Assembly (NCBI GenBank): GCA_021740845.1
Contig: JAIOYZ010000010.1
Location: forward strand, 1-64,000
DNA from: Bacteroidia bacterium
GTDB lineage: Bacteria > Bacteroidota > Bacteroidia > UKL13-3
DNA: 64,000 nucleotides
Direction: 5' to 3'
A model generated the notes under the pieces. It was not told the origin of the DNA. It did not search any database and was given only the letters and a program-made list of their open reading frames with translations. The stretch's first letter is position 1, and each line of letters begins with the position of its first letter. Positions 1,823 to 58,673 of the stretch are shown piece after piece. Position numbers and translations under genes: made by a program.

Positions 1823-2030
1823 GGATATTGGTGTTTCCTTCTTTATAGCCAAAAAAGAACCAAAATCACAACAAGCTATTTTTCAAACATTTAAACAAAA
1901 GGACAAACAACCACATCGACTCATTTTAAAACCCTATTCCCAAAAAGAGACAAGCCTCAGCTTTTAAAACCATTATTACTTAAAGTGGCTTTTTAATCAT
2001 TTTCGATACTTTGGTTCAAACTTAAACTGG

Positions 2031-2142
2031 GTTTTGGGTTTTGGGTTTAGTTTGGGAGTTTAGTTTGGGGGTTTGTTGGTTTGGGGGTTTGTTTATTTGT
2101 TTAATCGTTTATGCGTTTATGCGTTTATGCGTTTATGCGTTT
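2031..2142 (+). repeat. R1 repeat, copy 1 (G-rich tract plus GTTTATGC tandem array)
   Basis: The copy starts with runs of GGG separated by TTTT and continues with TTTGGGGGTTTGTTGG units. It ends in four perfect 8-bp GTTTATGC repeats. The same succession recurs near 4560, 5738, 6817, 9637, 10839 and 11143. The G-runs are on the plus strand and could form quadruplexes. Confidence 0.75.
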
Positions 2143-2163
2143 AAAATTTAGGCGTTAAGTAAG

Positions 2164-9636: not shown

Positions 9637-9944
9637 TGGGTTTTGGGTTTTGGGTTTTGAGTTTTGGGTTTTGAGGTTTGGGGTTTGGGGTTGGTTTGTG
9701 GGTTGGGAGGTTTGGGGGTTTGTTTATTCGTTTATGCGTTTATGCGTTTAATCGTTTATTCGATGTTTCTCAACCGAAGACTTGGCTTAGGTGGATAGTT
9801 GTTTAATGTTATTCATGGCTAATCTGCGAATTCTGCTTTCCTCCGCGAATTCTGCGTGAACGGGTAAATGCCAGTTGCTAGTTGCTAGTTGCTAGTTGCT
9901 AGTTGCTAGAAGCCTTTAGCTAGTTTCCAAAAGTAATTCCAACC
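9637..9944 (+). repeat. R1+R2 compound repeat, copy c, with telomere-like G tract and 7-bp tandem array
   Basis: It starts directly after the stop codon with GGGTTTTGGGTTTTGGG and further GGTTTGGGG units up to about 9722, the longest G-rich tract in the window. R2 follows from 9764. Inside R2 the word AGTTGCT is repeated five times in tandem (about 9873-9907), an expansion of GCCAGTTGCTAG seen once in copy a. Confidence 0.8.
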
Positions 9945-10058
9945 CGATGGGACGTGAGGGTTTGGATTGCAAATCCAAACCGGCGGAGTTTGGATTGTGA
10001 ATCTAAAACGGCGAGTTGTGAATCCAAACCAGAGGATTAAATTCTATAAACGATAATT
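9945..10058. repeat. TTTGGATT...AATCCAAA dyad repeats
   Basis: Three loosely tandem units each combine GGATTG or a variant with AATCCAAAC and GGCG. TTTGGATTGCAAATCCAAA is almost a palindrome. A degenerate version occurs near 2245-2290. They lie immediately downstream of the nucleotidyltransferase gene and may act in its termination. Confidence 0.5.
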
Positions 10059-10838: not shown

Positions 10839-11104
10839 GGTTTTGGGTTTTGGGTTTTGAGTTAAGTTTGGGGGTTTGTTGGTTTGGGGGTTTGTTTAAT
10901 CGTTTATTCGTTTAATCGTTTATTTGTTTAATCGTTTATTTGTTTAATTGTATATTCGTTTAATCGTTGTTTCTCCACCGAAGCCATACTTTGTAATCCG
11001 TGGCTTTAGCGTAGGAATAGCGTAGGTGGATAATGTTTAATTTTATTCATAACTAATCTGCGAAATCTGCTCTCATCCGCGAAATCTGCGTGAATGGGTA
11101 AATA
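10839..11104 (+). repeat. R1+R2 compound repeat, copy d
   Basis: R1 begins GGTTTTGGGTTTTGGG and includes alternating GTTTAATC and GTTTATTT units. R2 starts GTTGTTTCTCCACCGAAGCC and ends after CTGCGTGAATGGG. The 3' part seen in copies a-c (TAGTTTCCAAAAG) is missing. Confidence 0.75.
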
Positions 11105-34978: not shown

Positions 34979-35824
34979 CTACTTTTTCTTAAGTTTCTTT
35001 GTTGTTTTAAGTAGTTTTTTATCCTCAGCCTTTACTTTCCTCTCAACTTTTTTTAGGTCTTCCTCTACAGGTAAATCTTCAGGCTTAATTCCACTTTTTA
35101 ATAATAAACCTCTTACATCTTTATTATTTTTAACATGCTCTTTTGAAATTTCAGTTTCTGTTAATTGGTTAATCTTACGAATATTTACGTTAGTAAGTTC
35201 ATTTGCAAAATCTTTAGCTTTGATTGTGATAGTAGGTAAGAAATCTGCTAAAGGTCTGTTACTTGGCACACCCAATATTAATTTCATATCTATGGTAGAT
35301 TTACCTCCAAAGAGCGCGTGGTCACCTTTACTTCTAATTCTACCAAAACCAATACTATCTATTCCTTTTTGAAAAATAAAACCAGATAGCTCTTTTTCTG
35401 AAATACTTAATTTTTCTCTTGCTTGTAATCTTTCCCAATTTTTTAATCGTTGTTCTAATAGTTCTTGCTTTCTTGTTTGAACAGCAAAATAGTTCATAGC
35501 AAATGCAATTTCATCCTTTTTAGGATCTCCATTTTGGGCAATTAAATAACAAGCATATCTGGTTAAGATAATATCCTCAATATCTCGCTTTGCACCGGAG
35601 CCAAGGACAACCATTTTGCTGACGTCAGCAAAATGGTCTAAGACATCTTGCTTCGCATTAAAACAAGCCATTTTAGCTTTATCAATTACTAGTAAAAAAT
35701 TCCGCCATTGAGTATATCCAAGAAGCATTTGCAGGTCGCGAGCAAACCAATATTCAACATCTTCGTTTTGATTAACAACTAATTCAAAGCTGCTATGAAG
35801 TTTCGAAATAATTTCCTTTTTCAT
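34979..35824 (-). CDS. dinD: DNA-damage-inducible protein D (DinD, BRO-N type)
   Basis: The 281-residue product aligns by eye with E. coli DinD. It has EYWFARDLQMLLGYTQWRNF at residues about 24-43, then DHFADVSKMV, and GSGAKRDIEDIILTRYACYL followed by IAQNGDP. A helical region and a very basic, Lys-rich C-terminus follow. DinD of E. coli inhibits RecA filament function and is LexA-controlled; I see no clear LexA site of a known type here. The codons for HFADVSKM sit inside a perfect 28-bp palindrome at 35610-35637, which recurs 590 bp upstream of the gene. Confidence 0.88.
   Translation of the reverse strand: MKKEIISKLHSSFELVVNQNEDVEYWFARDLQMLLGYTQWRNFLLVIDKAKMACFNAKQDVLDHFADVSKMVVLGSGAKRDIEDIILTRYACYLIAQNGDPKKDEIAFAMNYFAVQTRKQELLEQRLKNWERLQAREKLSISEKELSGFIFQKGIDSIGFGRIRSKGDHALFGGKSTIDMKLILGVPSNRPLADFLPTITIKAKDFANELTNVNIRKINQLTETEISKEHVKNNKDVRGLLLKSGIKPEDLPVEEDLKKVERKVKAEDKKLLKTTKKLKKK
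35610..35637. repeat. 28-bp perfect palindrome inside dinD
   Basis: The left half is ACCATTTTGCTGAC and the right half its exact reverse complement, with centre AC|GT. It encodes the conserved HFADVSKMV stretch of DinD on the minus strand. An identical copy lies at 36414-36441. Confidence 0.95.
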
Positions 35825-36672
35825 GTTTTAATTTTTTTGGCTAATTCAATTATTTATCTTCTAGTTTTATTGTCGGCAAAATCAGTTTATTTAATTTCTC
35901 ATTTAAAATTAGTGTGTACAAGATAAATATTGAAAAATGGCTATTGTGTAAACGAATATAAAAATTCTAATTGACTCCTATTTGTGTCTCTGGATCAACT
36001 TTACTAATTCAATCAAATTGAAAGAAATAGTAGTAAAGTGAGAAAGGAAAAGACTTTAATAATATTACTTTTAGTAAGAGGTATTTAAATCATCAAAGAG
36101 GAACTATTCTATTTAATGATAAAACTATATTTACAATTTTGAAAATTCGTATGAAGTCCAATAAATACAGCTAATAACAAGAAAAGAAGAAAAATTTAAT
36201 GTATTTTTTTTTATGGTAAATTAAAAATTTTAAACTTATTGTTTTTATTAATCTGCTTCATAAAAACCCTTAAGGAATTTAAAAATATGACTGGCCAAAT
36301 CCTCAAAATTATTTTTCCTATTTCTAGGAAATAAAAATATTTAGGCCAAATGAAAACAAAACTATAAGAGCAAAAGTGGAAAAATAATGGATGAAAAATT
36401 GAAAAAAAAGGTGACCATTTTGCTGACGTCAGCAAAATGGTTAAAGGCCCATCAAAACAAGTGTTTCGAGCATATTTGATTTTTTGAAAATTGAAAAAAT
36501 TGGAAGCAAAAAAGGAATATAAAATTTTAGTGTCTGAATAAAATTCTACAACTAAAATTGAAACCAAATTGGTTCAAACCGAATTATTTTTTTGAATAAT
36601 ATTTAAACCAATATAATAAAACTCTACAAATTAAATGCTGAAATATTAATGTAAATATTTTCAGACTTTCAT
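35825..36672. other. Long gene-free region upstream of dinD
   Basis: About 850 bp, very AT-rich, without a credible gene. It contains the second copy of the 28-bp palindrome (36414-36441) and a GGTTCAAACCGAA word (36571). A 118-codon minus-strand frame (36211-36567) has low-complexity Phe/Ile-rich content and is not supported. The dinD promoter should lie near the left end. Confidence 0.6.
36414..36441. repeat. 28-bp perfect palindrome upstream of dinD
   Basis: It is identical to the palindrome inside dinD, half-site ACCATTTTGCTGAC plus reverse complement. Similarity stops at its edges: the flanks GTG and TAA differ from ACA and CTA in the gene. It is therefore not a remnant of a longer gene duplication that can still be seen. 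Confidence 0.95.
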
Positions 36673-54581: not shown

Positions 54582-55598
54582 CTAGTTTGCGGATTGCACC
54601 AAGGGTGAAACTTTGCTTCCAATCAATTCAATAGATTTCATTAATTGCTTATGCGTTAATCCTGCATCCATTTGAAATGTAAATCGACTTATCCCTCCTA
54701 GTGCTTCGCTGTGTCTACTAATTTTTTCGGCAACCGCTTCTGCGCTATCAACTAGGAGTGCGCCAAACAGCCCATTTTGTGCATTAAACCTTTCTATCGT
54801 AACTGGCGGAAATCCTCTTTCTTTTCCAATTTTAGTAAACATTTCTGCATAACCTGGATAATAATTTTCAATTGCTTCCTCTCTCGTATTTGCTACAAAT
54901 CCCAAAGAATGTAATCCTACTTTCAATTGCTCTGGTATATAACCAGCTTTCTCTCCTGCCTCTTTGTATAAATCTATTAATGGTCTGAACCGATACGTTT
55001 CTCCGCCAATTACTGCAACCATAAGAGGTAATCCTAATTCTCCTGCTCTTGCAAATGATGCTGGTGTTCCTCCAACTCCTAACCAAATGGGTAGCTTTTC
55101 TTGTAATGGTCGTGGATAAACTCCTTGCTTGTTTAAGGCTGGCCTAAATTTACCCGACCAACTTATAAACTCCTCGTCGCGTATTTGCAATAAGAGTTCT
55201 AATTTCTCAGCAAAAAGAGCATCATAATCGTTTAGGTTCAACCCAAAAAGCGGATACGATTCTATGAATGACCCTCGTCCTGCAACAATTTCTGCTCTTC
55301 CATTAGAAATTAAATCTAAAGTTGCAAAGCTTTGAAAAACACGAACCGGATCTGCTACACTTAGCACCGTAACTGCACTTGTCAATTTAATCTTCTTGGT
55401 TCTTGATGCTGCTGCAGCTAAAATAATAGCCGGCGCTGAGTCCAAAAATTCTTTTCTATAATGTTCTCCAATACCAAAAACATCCAATCCTACTTGATCT
55501 GCTAATTCAATGCGCTCCAACAATTCATTCATTGCTTGACTATTGCTAATCCCTGAATTTGCATTATTAATTGCAAAACTATCTATCCCTATTTCCAT
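54582..55598 (-). CDS. LLM-class (luciferase-like) flavin-dependent oxidoreductase
   Basis: The 338-residue protein has the bacterial-luciferase fold signatures: MEIGIDSFAINNANSGISNS, GLDVFGIGEHYRKEFLDSAP, TKKIKLTSAVTVLSVADPVR, GRAEIVAGRGSFIESYPLFG and PIWLGVGGTPASFARAGELG. It should use reduced flavin or F420 in the cytoplasm; the substrate is unknown. The stop is followed by a spacer with R4, and the REP-like array lies directly upstream of the start. Confidence 0.9.
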   Translation of the reverse strand: MEIGIDSFAINNANSGISNSQAMNELLERIELADQVGLDVFGIGEHYRKEFLDSAPAIILAAAASRTKKIKLTSAVTVLSVADPVRVFQSFATLDLISNGRAEIVAGRGSFIESYPLFGLNLNDYDALFAEKLELLLQIRDEEFISWSGKFRPALNKQGVYPRPLQEKLPIWLGVGGTPASFARAGELGLPLMVAVIGGETYRFRPLIDLYKEAGEKAGYIPEQLKVGLHSLGFVANTREEAIENYYPGYAEMFTKIGKERGFPPVTIERFNAQNGLFGALLVDSAEAVAEKISRHSEALGGISRFTFQMDAGLTHKQLMKSIELIGSKVSPLVQSAN

Positions 55599-56210
55599 AT
55601 TTTATTATTTGCATTTTTATCCCCAAATCCCCCATGGCTGAAGCCATGGGCTAAATATTTTTTTTCTGGATTATCGCAATACAAAACCAATTCATCCCCA
55701 CCACAGCTAAAGCTGTGGGCTATTGATTTTTTTCTCGATTCGCGTTGCTCGTCTCTCGCTTTCTGGATTCCCGCCTTCCTTCCCAAAACCCAAAACCATA
55801 AACCCAAAACCTTTCCCCAATATGGCTGAAGCCATGGGCTAAATATTTTTTTCTCGTCTCTCGATTCTCGTCTCTCGCTATCTAAATTCTGGACTCCTTC
55901 CCAAAACCCAAAACCATAAACCCAAAACCTTTCCCCAATATAGCTAAAGCTGTGGGCTATTGATTTTTTCTCTCGTCTCTCGATTCTCGCTCTCTGGATT
56001 CCCGCCTTCCTTCCCAAAACCCAAAACCATAAACCCAAAACCTTTCCCCAATATAGCTTAAGCCATGGGCTAAATATTTTTTTTCTCGTCTCTCGATTCT
56101 CGTCTCTCGCTCTCTGGATTCTGGATTCTGGATTCTAAATTCTTCCTCCTCCCAAAACCTAAAACCATAAACCCAAAACCTTTCCTCCCCACACCCAAAC
56201 TCAATCCCGA
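55599..56210. repeat. REP-like hairpin array with CT-rich and CCCAAAACC spacers
   Basis: Five elements carry hairpin-type text. Complete ones are CCCATGGC-TGAA-GCCATGGG (55631-55650) and CCACAGC-TAAA-GCTGTGG (55701-55718). Three more (near 55822, 55942 and 56052) keep the right arm and GGGCTAAAT or GGGCTATTGA tail but have a shortened left arm. Spacers repeat TCTCGTCTCTCGATTCTCG, then TTCCCAAAACCCAAAACC and ATAAACCCAAAACCTTTCCC. The minus-strand open frame over it has low-complexity content and is an artefact. The spacers, read on the minus strand, give the GGTTTTGGG text seen in R1. Confidence 0.85.
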
Positions 56211-58673
56211 TTAACCTGGGTCAACATCTGCGTAAACGATTACGCTGCGATAAATTTTGTCTGAATTGAGCTCCGTCATGGATTTGCGGATGGCTTGTTT
56301 TACAGCTTCTAATTCTGGATTGTTGCGGTTTATCTTAATAAGAATCTCCTTGATATAATAATTGCGTATCTTACTCACATGCGGACTCTCAGGTCCAAGC
56401 ATCACCGCATTTACATTGCCTGTCATAAGATATTTTAAGCGCAAGGCTGCTTGCTCAACCGTTTTGTAATCTTTGTGTTTTAGAACCAATTTTATGAGGC
56501 GGTAAAATGGTGGATACGCAAATTTTTGTCGGTCTTCTAATTCGCGTTCCATTAAGGCATTGTATTGTTGGTGCAACAAGGCTTGCAATACAAAATGATT
56601 GGGCATAGATGTTTGTATCACCACCCTTCCCTGTTTGTGTTTTCTTCCTGCTCGTCCGCTTACCTGCAAGAGCATTTGCATGGCCCTTTCGTGTGCTCTA
56701 AAATCAGGAAACGACAATAAGGAATCTGCATTAATTACTCCTACCAAACTCACATGCTCAAAATCCAATCCTTTACTGAGCATTTGGGTTCCCACCAAAA
56801 TATCAAACTGCCTTTCCTCAAAACTTCGTATGATTTCTTCATGACCGTTTTTAGTTTTTGCTGCGTCTAAATCTAAGCGGGCAATGCGAGCTAGTGGATA
56901 CAATTCTTTTAACTCATCTTCCACTTTTTCTGTGCCTACTCCTTTTAAACTTAACTGTGTAGAACCGCATGCACCGCAGGTTGGCGGCACTTGTTGGGTA
57001 TAACCACAATAATGACATTTCAAAGAATCAATGTATTTGTGGTAAGTTAAACTGATATCGCAATTTTTGCATTTGGGCACCCATTCGCATTTATTACACG
57101 ATAAAAAAGGAGCATAACCGCGTCGGTTTTGAAACAGAATAACTTGTTCATTTTGTTTCAAAGCATCTTCAATTGCATGGTGCATTTGCAAACTAATATC
57201 ATCCTTCATCATGCTTCTAACCCTGCGTTCCTCGGCAATATTAGCGGTTTCTATTTTGGGTGGCTCAATTTCATAAAAGCGTTTTTCCATTTTCACCCAA
57301 GCATATTTATTTTGCTGGGCCATATAAAACACTTCCATAGACGGCGTAGCAGAACCCAATAAAGTTTTGCAATTACTTTGCTTGGCCAAAATCATAGCAG
57401 CATCTCTTGCATGGTAACGTGGAGATGGATCGTGTTGCTTATAACTTCCTTCATGCTCCTCGTCTACTATGCACAAACCAAGGTCTTTAAATGGTAAGAA
57501 AACCGCACTTCTTGCACCAATAATTATTTGGTATCTTCCGTCCTTAACCTTTTGCCATATCTCAACTTTCTCTTGGTCGTTGTACTTGCTATGGTAAGAG
57601 ATACATGCCTCACCAAAAAACTTACGTATGCGCTTTACAATTTGCGAGGTAAGTGCAATTTCTGGAAGGAGAAACAAAACCTGTTTTCCTTGCTCCATTT
57701 GCTCTTGGATCAACCTAACATAAACATGCGTTTTACCAGAGCCTGTTATGCCTTGCAGCAATACAATATCCTTTTCTTCCCAAGCTTTTTTTATATCTAC
57801 AAACGCAGATTCTTGGTCTTGGTTCAAAACAAAATCTTCTTTAGGTGTTGCTGCAATTTGAATGCGGTCTACGCTCATTTGATAAGGAATAAAAATCCCT
57901 TTTTTAATAAGCGTATTTAATGGAGCCGAAGTTCCGTTGCAGGTTTTAACCAATAAGGCTTTGTCAATATCTGTTTCGTGTTGTCTTAAATGCAAGTAAG
58001 CAAGCAAGTAATTTAGTTGCTTTTCATTTCTTTCTAAAGTGGCAAAAAGCGCTTCTAAGGCTGGTTCTTCATCAAATTGCGGAGCTAGTTTTAAGCAGGT
58101 TATTTTCTTTTCTTTATAGCGTTCCTCCAATTGCTCTTTTATCAAAATCATTTCCTTTTTCACCATGCTTTTCAGCAGAGGAAATACATTTTTCAATTGA
58201 ATAATTTCAGAAATTTCTTCTAATGTAAGTTCGTGTTTTACCTCCAAGGCTTCGTAAACCAAATACTCTTTATCATCTAATTCGGTTTGATCCAACTCAA
58301 ATGAAGGGTTGGCTGCAATGCGTGTTGCACTTTCTAGTTTAAAGGCGGCAGGAAGTGCGGCTTGCATCACCTCTCCTAATGAACACAAATAATATTTGCT
58401 TATCCAATCCCAAAATAAAAAGTGTTTTGGATCAAGAATTGGTTCTTCATCCAAAACACTATAAATATATTTTGCTTCGTAATTTTTGGGCGGCGTATGG
58501 TGTATTTGATAAATTAATCCCGCATACACTTTTTTGGCCCCAAACTGTATGGCAACTCTTTTACCAACTGCTATTTCTGCTTCCCAATCTTTGGGTACAC
58601 GGTAGGTATATACCTGCTGCAAATGCAGTGGCAAAATAACATTAACAAATATGGCAAAATTGTCTTCGGTCAT
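56211..58673 (-). CDS. priA: Primosomal replication protein N' (PriA helicase)
   Basis: The 820-residue protein has the PriA layout: N-terminal DNA-binding domain (FVNVILPLHLQQVYTYRVPK), Walker A in VLLQGITGSGKTHVYVRLI, the DEEH box (CIVDEEHEGSYKQHDPSPRY), motif GSATPSMEVFYMA, a zinc cluster (CNKCEWVPKCKNCDISL, then CHYCG and CGACGS) and the helicase C-terminal motifs GTQMLSKGLDFEHVSLVG and QVSGRAGR. It restarts stalled replication forks. It lies next to the REP-like array, 1 bp away at its 3' end. Confidence 0.97.
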   Translation of the reverse strand: MTEDNFAIFVNVILPLHLQQVYTYRVPKDWEAEIAVGKRVAIQFGAKKVYAGLIYQIHHTPPKNYEAKYIYSVLDEEPILDPKHFLFWDWISKYYLCSLGEVMQAALPAAFKLESATRIAANPSFELDQTELDDKEYLVYEALEVKHELTLEEISEIIQLKNVFPLLKSMVKKEMILIKEQLEERYKEKKITCLKLAPQFDEEPALEALFATLERNEKQLNYLLAYLHLRQHETDIDKALLVKTCNGTSAPLNTLIKKGIFIPYQMSVDRIQIAATPKEDFVLNQDQESAFVDIKKAWEEKDIVLLQGITGSGKTHVYVRLIQEQMEQGKQVLFLLPEIALTSQIVKRIRKFFGEACISYHSKYNDQEKVEIWQKVKDGRYQIIIGARSAVFLPFKDLGLCIVDEEHEGSYKQHDPSPRYHARDAAMILAKQSNCKTLLGSATPSMEVFYMAQQNKYAWVKMEKRFYEIEPPKIETANIAEERRVRSMMKDDISLQMHHAIEDALKQNEQVILFQNRRGYAPFLSCNKCEWVPKCKNCDISLTYHKYIDSLKCHYCGYTQQVPPTCGACGSTQLSLKGVGTEKVEDELKELYPLARIARLDLDAAKTKNGHEEIIRSFEERQFDILVGTQMLSKGLDFEHVSLVGVINADSLLSFPDFRAHERAMQMLLQVSGRAGRKHKQGRVVIQTSMPNHFVLQALLHQQYNALMERELEDRQKFAYPPFYRLIKLVLKHKDYKTVEQAALRLKYLMTGNVNAVMLGPESPHVSKIRNYYIKEILIKINRNNPELEAVKQAIRKSMTELNSDKIYRSVIVYADVDPG

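Follow-up and report, generated by a model that had tools for sequence, protein, structure and literature searches.

The array between priA and the LLM gene

The window analysed here is the whole stretch of 64,000 nucleotides (nt) at the start of contig JAIOYZ010000010.1 (GenBank assembly GCA_021740845.1, a Bacteroidia bacterium), and the element in question is an array of short DNA hairpins in a 612-nt intergenic stretch, 55599-56210. The original prediction, made from the letters of the window alone, took it for an array of repetitive extragenic palindromic (REP) hairpins or bacterial interspersed mosaic elements (BIMEs), inserted next to priA and of the kind that a REP-associated tyrosine transposase (RAYT) mobilises. 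Five hairpin units follow one another in this stretch as A B A B A, each with a tail beside its right arm which we call the foot. Both flanking genes lie on the minus strand, the units are listed on the plus strand, and 32 nt separate the start codon of the LLM gene from unit 1. The features are as follows.

54582-55598, minus strand: LLM class monooxygenase (luciferase-like oxygenase) gene, TIGR03858
55631-55656, plus strand: unit 1 (A), 8-bp stem CCCATGGC/GCCATGGG (hairpin 55631-55650), loop TGAA, foot CTAAAT
55701-55726, plus strand: unit 2 (B), 7-bp stem CCACAGC/GCTGTGG (hairpin 55701-55718), loop TAAA, foot G-CTATTGA
55754-56108, plus strand: tandem region of period about 113 nt, 3.1 copies, 82% matches, Tandem Repeats Finder score 519, repeat family D1
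55781-56185, plus strand: heptanucleotide spacers with four CCCAAAA blocks (55781-55816, 55899-55934, 56012-56047 and 56150-56185)
55817-55844, plus strand: unit 3 (A'), left CCAATA, short stem ATGGC/GCCAT, loop TGAA, foot CTAAAT
55935-55963, plus strand: unit 4 (B'), left CCAATA, short stem ATAGC/GCTGT (one G-T pair), loop TAAA, foot CTATTGA
56048-56075, plus strand: unit 5 (A''), left CCAATA, mismatched short stem ATAGC/GCCAT, loop TTAA, foot CTAAAT
56211-58673, minus strand: priA, replication restart helicase (TIGR00595, E 1.8e-175), whose stop codon adjoins the array stretch

The description of the units given in the original prediction was confirmed. The intact hairpins CCCATGGC-TGAA-GCCATGGG and CCACAGC-TAAA-GCTGTGG keep pairing while their sequence changes, the differences between the A and B stems being compensatory, and the tails are of two types that alternate along the array (CTAAAT, CTATTGA, CTAAAT, CTATTGA, CTAAAT). 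Units 3 to 5, near 55822, 55940 and 56053, retain the right arm and the fixed tail, with a left arm reduced to about five bases after CCAATA, itself approximately an inverted copy of the TATTGA foot. Read on the minus strand, unit 1 becomes ATTTAG-stem-TTCA-stem. The tandem region probably represents a doublet of two hairpins that is present twice (B...A' and B'...A''), in which the feet are inverted as in a simple REPIN (a pair of inverted REPs), while the loops are not.

When the 612-nt segment was shuffled 2000 times by dinucleotides, two or more hairpins of the array kind occurred in a single case. As single-stranded DNA of the minus strand, units 1 and 2 are more stably folded than shuffled sequence (z -2.9 and -2.2); folding of units 3 to 5 is not clearly above shuffles (z -1.1, +0.4 and +1.0).

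Between the CCCAAAA blocks of the array sit blocks of the heptamers CTCTCGT and TTCTGGA, and period-7 autocorrelation is 0.46 in the array spacers against 0.28 in the window. Heptanucleotide (also octanucleotide) repeats are found in further intergenic regions of the window (2028-2143, 9637-9909 and 10839-10863) and at the loci L066, L067 and L069, with units that vary (CCCAAAA, CTCTCGT, TTCTGGA, TGCTAGT, GTTTATTC). They bring to mind the short tandemly repeated repetitive (STRR) heptamers of cyanobacteria.

A dispersed hairpin family with one geometry

The genome that contains the window measures 4.09 Mb in 66 contigs. Exact AAGCYRTGGGCTAWW sites occur in it seven times, five in the array and two on contig 12; the pattern is absent from the reverse strand genome-wide, and a reversed control pattern likewise gave no match. 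A covariance model, R1, finds at least 46 places at E ≤ 1 and at least 41 at E ≤ 0.01, the latter on 12 contigs; copy numbers from R1, and from the second model R2, are lower bounds, at most 115-150 first-look candidates having been scored per genome. R2 was made from 15 hairpins of this genome only, because R1 came partly from genomes in which it was searched, and it matches unit 1 at E 5.9e-6 and unit 2 at E 5.6e-7 (both units are in the model), with a weak match to unit 4 (E 0.0033). An exact pattern, AAGCYRTGGGCTA, was also tried as a family marker and matched 13/64 genomes of the same GTDB family, own included; four plus-strand matches read in relatives (L045, L047, L048 and L050) had no hairpin, and the pattern was dropped for the covariance models.

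The genomic family has varied stems in a common 8-4-8 geometry, mostly with a T[GA]AA loop and a CTATTGA or CAATTGA foot. Larger arrays of the same plan use the stems CCCAGGGC..GCCCTGGG (contigs C63 and C51), CCTGCAGC..GCTGTAGG (C41 and C51), CCCGAGGC..GCCTCGGG (C51) and GGTATGGC..GCCATACC (C49). The stems CCTCCAGA..TCTGGAGG and GAATTGGC..GCCAATTC occur on C26, C43 and C1, and the hairpin pairs of C26 and C43 are inverted with their feet inward. On C1, C10, C37 and C43 hairpins are located close to the ends of the contigs. The fetched parts of the genome contain 11 distinct perfect 8-bp hairpins with 8 different stems, in which the foot pattern [CT][AT]AT[AT] stands on the right in 6/11 and on the left in 0/11.

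Covariation was followed in 31 hairpins, 12 from this genome and 19 from beside transposase genes of relatives. Pairing holds in 98.0% of the cells, a figure that is partly due to choice, since the rows were selected as hairpins; both partners differ in 103 cells, compared with 29.9 after shuffling, and sliding the partner by 1-3 columns lowers pairing to 23-43%. The informative part of this covariation is the diversity of stems under an unchanged loop.

A hairpin of 28 nt, ACCATTTTGCTGACGTCAGCAAAATGGT, occurs in the window in two identical copies about 800 nt apart (35610-35637 and 36414-36441), the first of which falls within the open reading frame (ORF) 34979-35824.

Y1 genes of the genome and their own hairpins

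According to the original prediction, a genome with no further hairpins and no Y1 transposase would speak against it. This genome has both the dispersed hairpins and four Y1_Tnp matches. One of these proteins, P0003, lies above the NCBIfam cut-off for a REP-associated tyrosine transposase (NF047646) and is the sole such protein among the three of the four Y1 genes that were scanned. Its own hairpins, GGTGCGGATT..AATCCGCACC, are quite unlike those of the array, and hairpins that do match the array flank class 1 genes in relatives; a RAYT, as named in the original prediction, is not the likely matching nuclease. A second Y1 gene, interrupted by a contig end, has hairpins GGCGAAGTC..GACTTCGCC; P0002 has hairpins CGACCCC..GGGGTCG, and P0001 (locus L001, 142 amino acids) has hairpins CCCAGGGTT..AACCCTGGG with feet such as CTAAT. 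P0001 and P0002 both bear Y---Q--HH, the signature of subclass 1.2 of the Y1 transposases. There is in addition a relic of a subclass 1.2 gene with one stop (L244, C49:101562-101744 of this genome, G000), which is 63% identical to L130 over 63 residues and belongs to a clade of 153-residue proteins, not to the clade A described below.

At 9959-9981 the window holds a hairpin, GGTTTGGATTGCAAATCCAAACC, with a decayed second copy, similar to the hairpins beside the RAYT gene P0003 (L003). These may represent another REP-like family of the window; the core motif alone is not above chance there.

Subclass 1.2 nucleases and their hairpins in the GTDB family

In the GTDB family, 48/64 genomes (this one among them) yielded 118 places in a search with P0001. 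The analysis covered 111 of these; owing to the other 7, a clade A gene in G023, G054 or G063 may have escaped notice. The signature Y---Q--HH is present in 71/71 proteins of the first set and in 36/40 of the later set, the other four being cut or broken; the assignment to subclass 1.2 rests on this motif and not on the clustering used in the survey that defined the subclass. Pfam PF01797 (Y1_Tnp) was found in all five proteins of the subclass 1.2 type that were scanned.

Hairpins gather beside these genes. Within 600 nt of the gene, the first 71 loci have 165 hairpins, compared with 4-12 when shuffled; there are 3.5 hairpins per kb over the nearest 200 nt and at most 0.2 per kb beyond 600 nt. 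A repeated hairpin family lies within 600 nt at 32/71 loci and at none in each of 10 shuffles; controls gave 1/52 window segments and 0/25 segments of other loci. On a tree of 70 rows (L104 was excluded for an internal stop) loop size is clustered, with 20 changes against a shuffled mean of 28.4 and a value as low in 0/200 shuffles; the clustering comes chiefly from 4-nt loops, 3- and 5-nt loops alone not being clearly clustered.

The clade with the hairpins that concern us, clade A, has 18 rows (support 100/98), or 21 in the 111-row tree with three later rows, and consists of Bacteroidota proteins of about 145 residues. In 11 clade A rows H54, H56, W94, Q95, Y114, Q118, H121 and H122 are invariant, including the HUH residues and the catalytic tyrosine. 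The nearest solved sequences are IS200/IS605-type transposases, namely 2xm3/2xma and the ISHp608 transposase 2a6m; the former we take to be ISDra2 TnpA.

Clade A hairpins mostly have 8-bp stems and T[GA]AA loops. Oriented by the loop, they show CAATTGA, CAATAGA, CTATTCA and similar bases beside the stem, and among 37 distinct hairpins, taken with T[GA]AA loops only, the foot [CT][AT]AT[AT] is found in 28/37 on the right side and in 0/37 on the left, against 21/350 in the hairpin flanks of other clades (p 8e-22). When no selection on the loop is made, T[GA]AA is found in 16/18 distinct clade A tetraloop hairpins with stems of at least 8 bp. On the opposite strand, where REPs carry GT[AG]G, the foot reads ATTG, ATAG or, for the A units of the window, TTAG, and the loop reads TT[CT]A. 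One of the stems of the present genome, CCTCCAGA..TCTGGAGG of C26 and C43, also lies beside clade A genes at L092 (one end base changed), L272, L275 and others.

Other clades of subclass 1.2 (L116, L147, L096, L136, L148-L150) have hairpin families of their own with 3- or 5-nt loops, for example CAACTCCTTCGGAGTTG and CATAGGGCGATACCCTATG. Runs of a single hairpin also occur: eight CTTGGATT hairpins surround L094, and seven CAAGGGCC hairpins follow L123, mostly 46 nt apart.

Clade A loci across Bacteroidota

A scan of named genomes with the clade A alignment confirmed at least 523 relatives, of which the best 80 form the named set, which therefore favours close relatives of the query; the taxa include Flavobacterium, Algoriphagus, Cyclobacterium, Lacihabitans, Pedobacter and Saprospiraceae. 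After exclusion of L266 (the same locus as L101), 79 loci remain. Their hairpins have 4-nt loops in 157/168 cases, T[AG]AA in 148/157 of these, and the foot fits 96/121 distinct hairpins on the right and 10/121 on the left. The picture is kept in the 76 loci that remain when L270, L275 and L343, which overlap the first set, are also excluded (4-nt loops 150/160, T[AG]AA 141/150, foot 90/115 right versus 10/115 left). A repeated hairpin family is present at 29/79 loci and at none in each of five shuffles, and no 4-nt-loop hairpin was found at 14/79. Hairpin number and orientation vary among these loci: among 92 neighbouring pairs on one side of a gene, the feet point inward in 46 inverted pairs and outward in 24, and the remaining 22 pairs share one orientation.

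Co-occurrence of hairpins and clade A genes

With the own genome set aside, R2 (E ≤ 0.01) matches 16/17 genomes with a clade A gene and 11/46 without (p 4.7e-7). Within the genus the figures are 3/3 with the gene versus 3/15 without (p 0.025), and outside the two largest genera 5/6 versus 7/29 (p 0.012). The genomes that have hairpins and in which no clade A gene was found include the present one, with at least 43 R2 matches, and G009, with at least 9 matches and three proteins none of which is clade A. These two would be orphan hairpin populations, or the gene would lie in an assembly gap.

The LLM gene was found in 3/19 genomes of the genus (own included, E ≤ 1e-40) and priA in 17/19 (own included). 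The array was seen downstream of priA in 0/16 congeners: in 13 another ORF follows, and in 3 the available sequence is too short to judge (30, 119 and 431 nt). G013 has other hairpins downstream of priA, and the LLM gene of G002 does not adjoin priA. The claim that the array was inserted next to priA was thus not borne out: gene order beyond priA differs among relatives and there is no empty site to compare, so an insertion beside priA cannot be read.

Interpretation of the array

We consider it probable, from the sequence comparisons above, that the array consists of REP-like hairpins of the type that goes with the clade A nucleases (subclass 1.2 signature), clustered here as an orphan group that has partly decayed. 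It would be an orphan in this assembly because no clade A nuclease was found in the genome. The likely matching nuclease would then be an IS200-like class 1 Y1 HUH protein with that signature and not a class 2 RAYT. As far as sequences can tell, the hairpins are demonstrated to share the 8-4-8 geometry, a near-fixed TTNA loop, an ATAG/ATTG foot and a stem that changes and stays paired, and the data support the view that they form a dispersed REP-like family which would belong with Y1 nucleases, often in REPIN/BIME-like pairs. To that extent the original reading as a REP/BIME-type array stands, the hairpins being dispersed, REP-like, linked to Y1 genes and often paired; one point to correct is that the feet are ATAG, ATTG and TTAG and not the canonical GTAG.

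Several observations weigh against this interpretation. No clade A gene was found in the genome, where the best matches are L001 (41%) and L002 (34%). The clade A foot fits only 6/11 of the genome's own hairpins and does not fit unit A of the window (CTAAAT). The doublets of the window, of C63 and of C51 have a second hairpin in which the foot is inverted and the loop is not. By the strict test, 39/71 loci of the GTDB family and 50/79 named loci have no repeated hairpin family. Two of the clade A loci call for caution: the placement of L204 (G013) in the clade depends on a long branch, and L092 (congener G001) may be a foreign contig or a transferred one, since it is 94% identical to the Lacihabitans locus L275 and its assembly has 8% contamination. 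Relatedness explains part of the association between hairpins and gene, as the within-genus and outside-genera figures indicate. Finally, no empty site for the array was found among the relatives of the genus.

Among other explanations, the one that survives best is that the nuclease of the array is L001, the 142-residue Y1 protein of this same genome with its own foot GGGCTAAT, which would make the array native and not an orphan. L001 and four relatives join clade A on the tree (99/96), and around L001 lie four CCCAGGGTTAAAAACCCTGGG-type hairpins, all in one orientation (a script detected three, and an imperfect fourth was spotted by eye); their feet look like that of unit A and that of the contig 12 pair (CTAATTTTTTT). 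Its hairpins, however, have the loop TTAAAAA and not T[GA]AA, and none has the TATTGA foot, whereas unit B and the larger arrays (C41, C51 and C63) carry CTATTGA. We regard this explanation as unlikely.

The 113-nt period with its 82% matches, the heptamer spacers and the roughly 100 mostly weak matches of the array stretch elsewhere in the genome would also suit an ordinary minisatellite, produced by heptanucleotide slippage and unequal recombination, in which the hairpins are passengers without a nuclease. The number of copies at this place is probably due to slippage or recombination. As an account of the hairpins themselves the minisatellite is still less probable than the previous explanation, because the same kind of hairpin occurs with other spacers on 12 contigs, and because loop and foot are conserved across genera while the stems change with compensation.

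It is very improbable that the hairpins act as RNA, either as terminators or as a small RNA like Rfam Acido-Lenti-1 (RF01687): T-runs do come after the feet, and RF01687 matches unit A with 26.6 bits (55631-55658) and the best C63 and C51 hairpins with 28.5-29.8 bits (E 0.0024-0.0054), but the T-runs begin 7-8 nt past the stem, both neighbouring genes lie on the other strand, every score (29.8 bits at most, L070 and L063 included) is under the gathering score of 37, and 0/40 named clade A loci tested (of the 80) match at E ≤ 0.01. Acido-Lenti-1 was consequently rejected as the identity of the array. Given the RF01687 consensus, an 8-4-8 hairpin whose foot is CUAAU, the family may itself hold REP-like DNA hairpins.

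Taking the array as an orphan cluster of clade A hairpins, a mechanism can be proposed by analogy with known systems. As in the REP systems of E. coli, Stenotrophomonas and Marinomonas, the nuclease would bind one strand of the folded hairpin through the loop and the foot, and, as in known REP and IS200/IS605 systems, it would cut beside the hairpin with its single tyrosine. Cutting may lead to doublets being copied or moved, as in known REP systems, leaving the stem free to drift. Doublets would have spread in this genome, tandem duplication would then have multiplied a B...A doublet beside priA, and the cognate gene would have been lost or may lie in an assembly gap, while units 3-5 presumably decayed.

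Wider meaning

The array itself is ordinary. We lean slightly towards a broader view, in which one lineage of IS200-type class 1 HUH nucleases has come to maintain a REP/REPIN system of its own across the whole of Bacteroidota, independently of RAYTs. The code of that system would combine an arbitrary 8-bp stem with a TTNA loop and an [A/T]T[A/T]G foot. Under that view, the likeness of loop and foot to those of group 3 REPs would reflect either convergence or descent of the group 3 forms from these, and the Acido-Lenti-1 RNA annotation may in some cases cover hairpins of the clade A kind. The REP systems in the literature seen are served by class 2 TnpAREP proteins (and small class 3 ones); if class 1 nucleases run REP populations phylum-wide, they provide a second case of a transposase becoming a domesticated, repeat-keeping nuclease. 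From the hairpin-foot-loop code one can derive testable predictions of substrates and cutting sites; under the IS608 guide rule set out in PMC8266576, a foot ATAG would be expected to favour cutting at CT, and a foot ATTG at CA. The code may also identify many intergenic hairpins of Bacteroidota that so far lack an explanation.

Comparison with known systems

TIRtrons (TIRYT) have RAYT-like genes flanked by non-GTAG inverted repeats, some of them dispersed, according to the available part of PMC3733652. As characterised there, they differ from the present loci by their long terminal inverted repeats, some with GGGGWSAS, and by their RAYT-type proteins, and TTNA-loop hairpins are not described in that part of the text.

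IS200/IS605 elements (subclass 1.1) also combine a Y1 HUH nuclease with hairpins near the gene. Here there are often many hairpins per gene, in both orientations, together with solo arrays that have no gene, and not a mobile unit with one hairpin per end.

As set out in the available sections of the 2018 survey PMC6006769, TnpAY1 subclass 1.2 shares with the present proteins the WQ motif, Y---Q--HH (given there as its signature), a length of about 148 residues, occurrence in Bacteroidetes and a low copy number. Unlike in that survey, where the entry for REP in Table 1 is 'no', repeated hairpins flank 32/71 family loci here. Because that table lists subclass 1.2 without REPs, the pairing looks like a new one between REPs and a nuclease, and in the open-access literature searched we found no REPs in print for subclass 1.2. 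The clustering of hairpins at clade A genes contradicts that table entry, not the membership of the proteins in subclass 1.2.

There is also a close likeness to the REP/REPIN/BIME systems of class 2 TnpAREP (RAYT) proteins, especially the short REPs with perfect stems of group 3 (Stenotrophomonas and Marinomonas). Both have dispersed hairpins with perfect stems, a tetranucleotide at the 5' foot, doublets that here are in part inverted, and hairpins clustered at a low-copy Y1 gene. They differ in the nuclease, which here is class 1 (Y---Q--HH) and there class 2 (Y---NP), in the loop of the second hairpin in the window, whose orientation is not inverted, and in the foot, which is ATTG, ATAG or TTAG (TTAG in window unit A, ATAG in window unit B) in place of the GT[AG]G of GTAG REPs. 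The loop is shared too: in the REPMb hairpins of Marinomonas, as given in the available part of PMC8266576, the T, T and A of TTNA are required and the third base is free, and the same TTNA loop is found in the clade A hairpins, an agreement that is striking.
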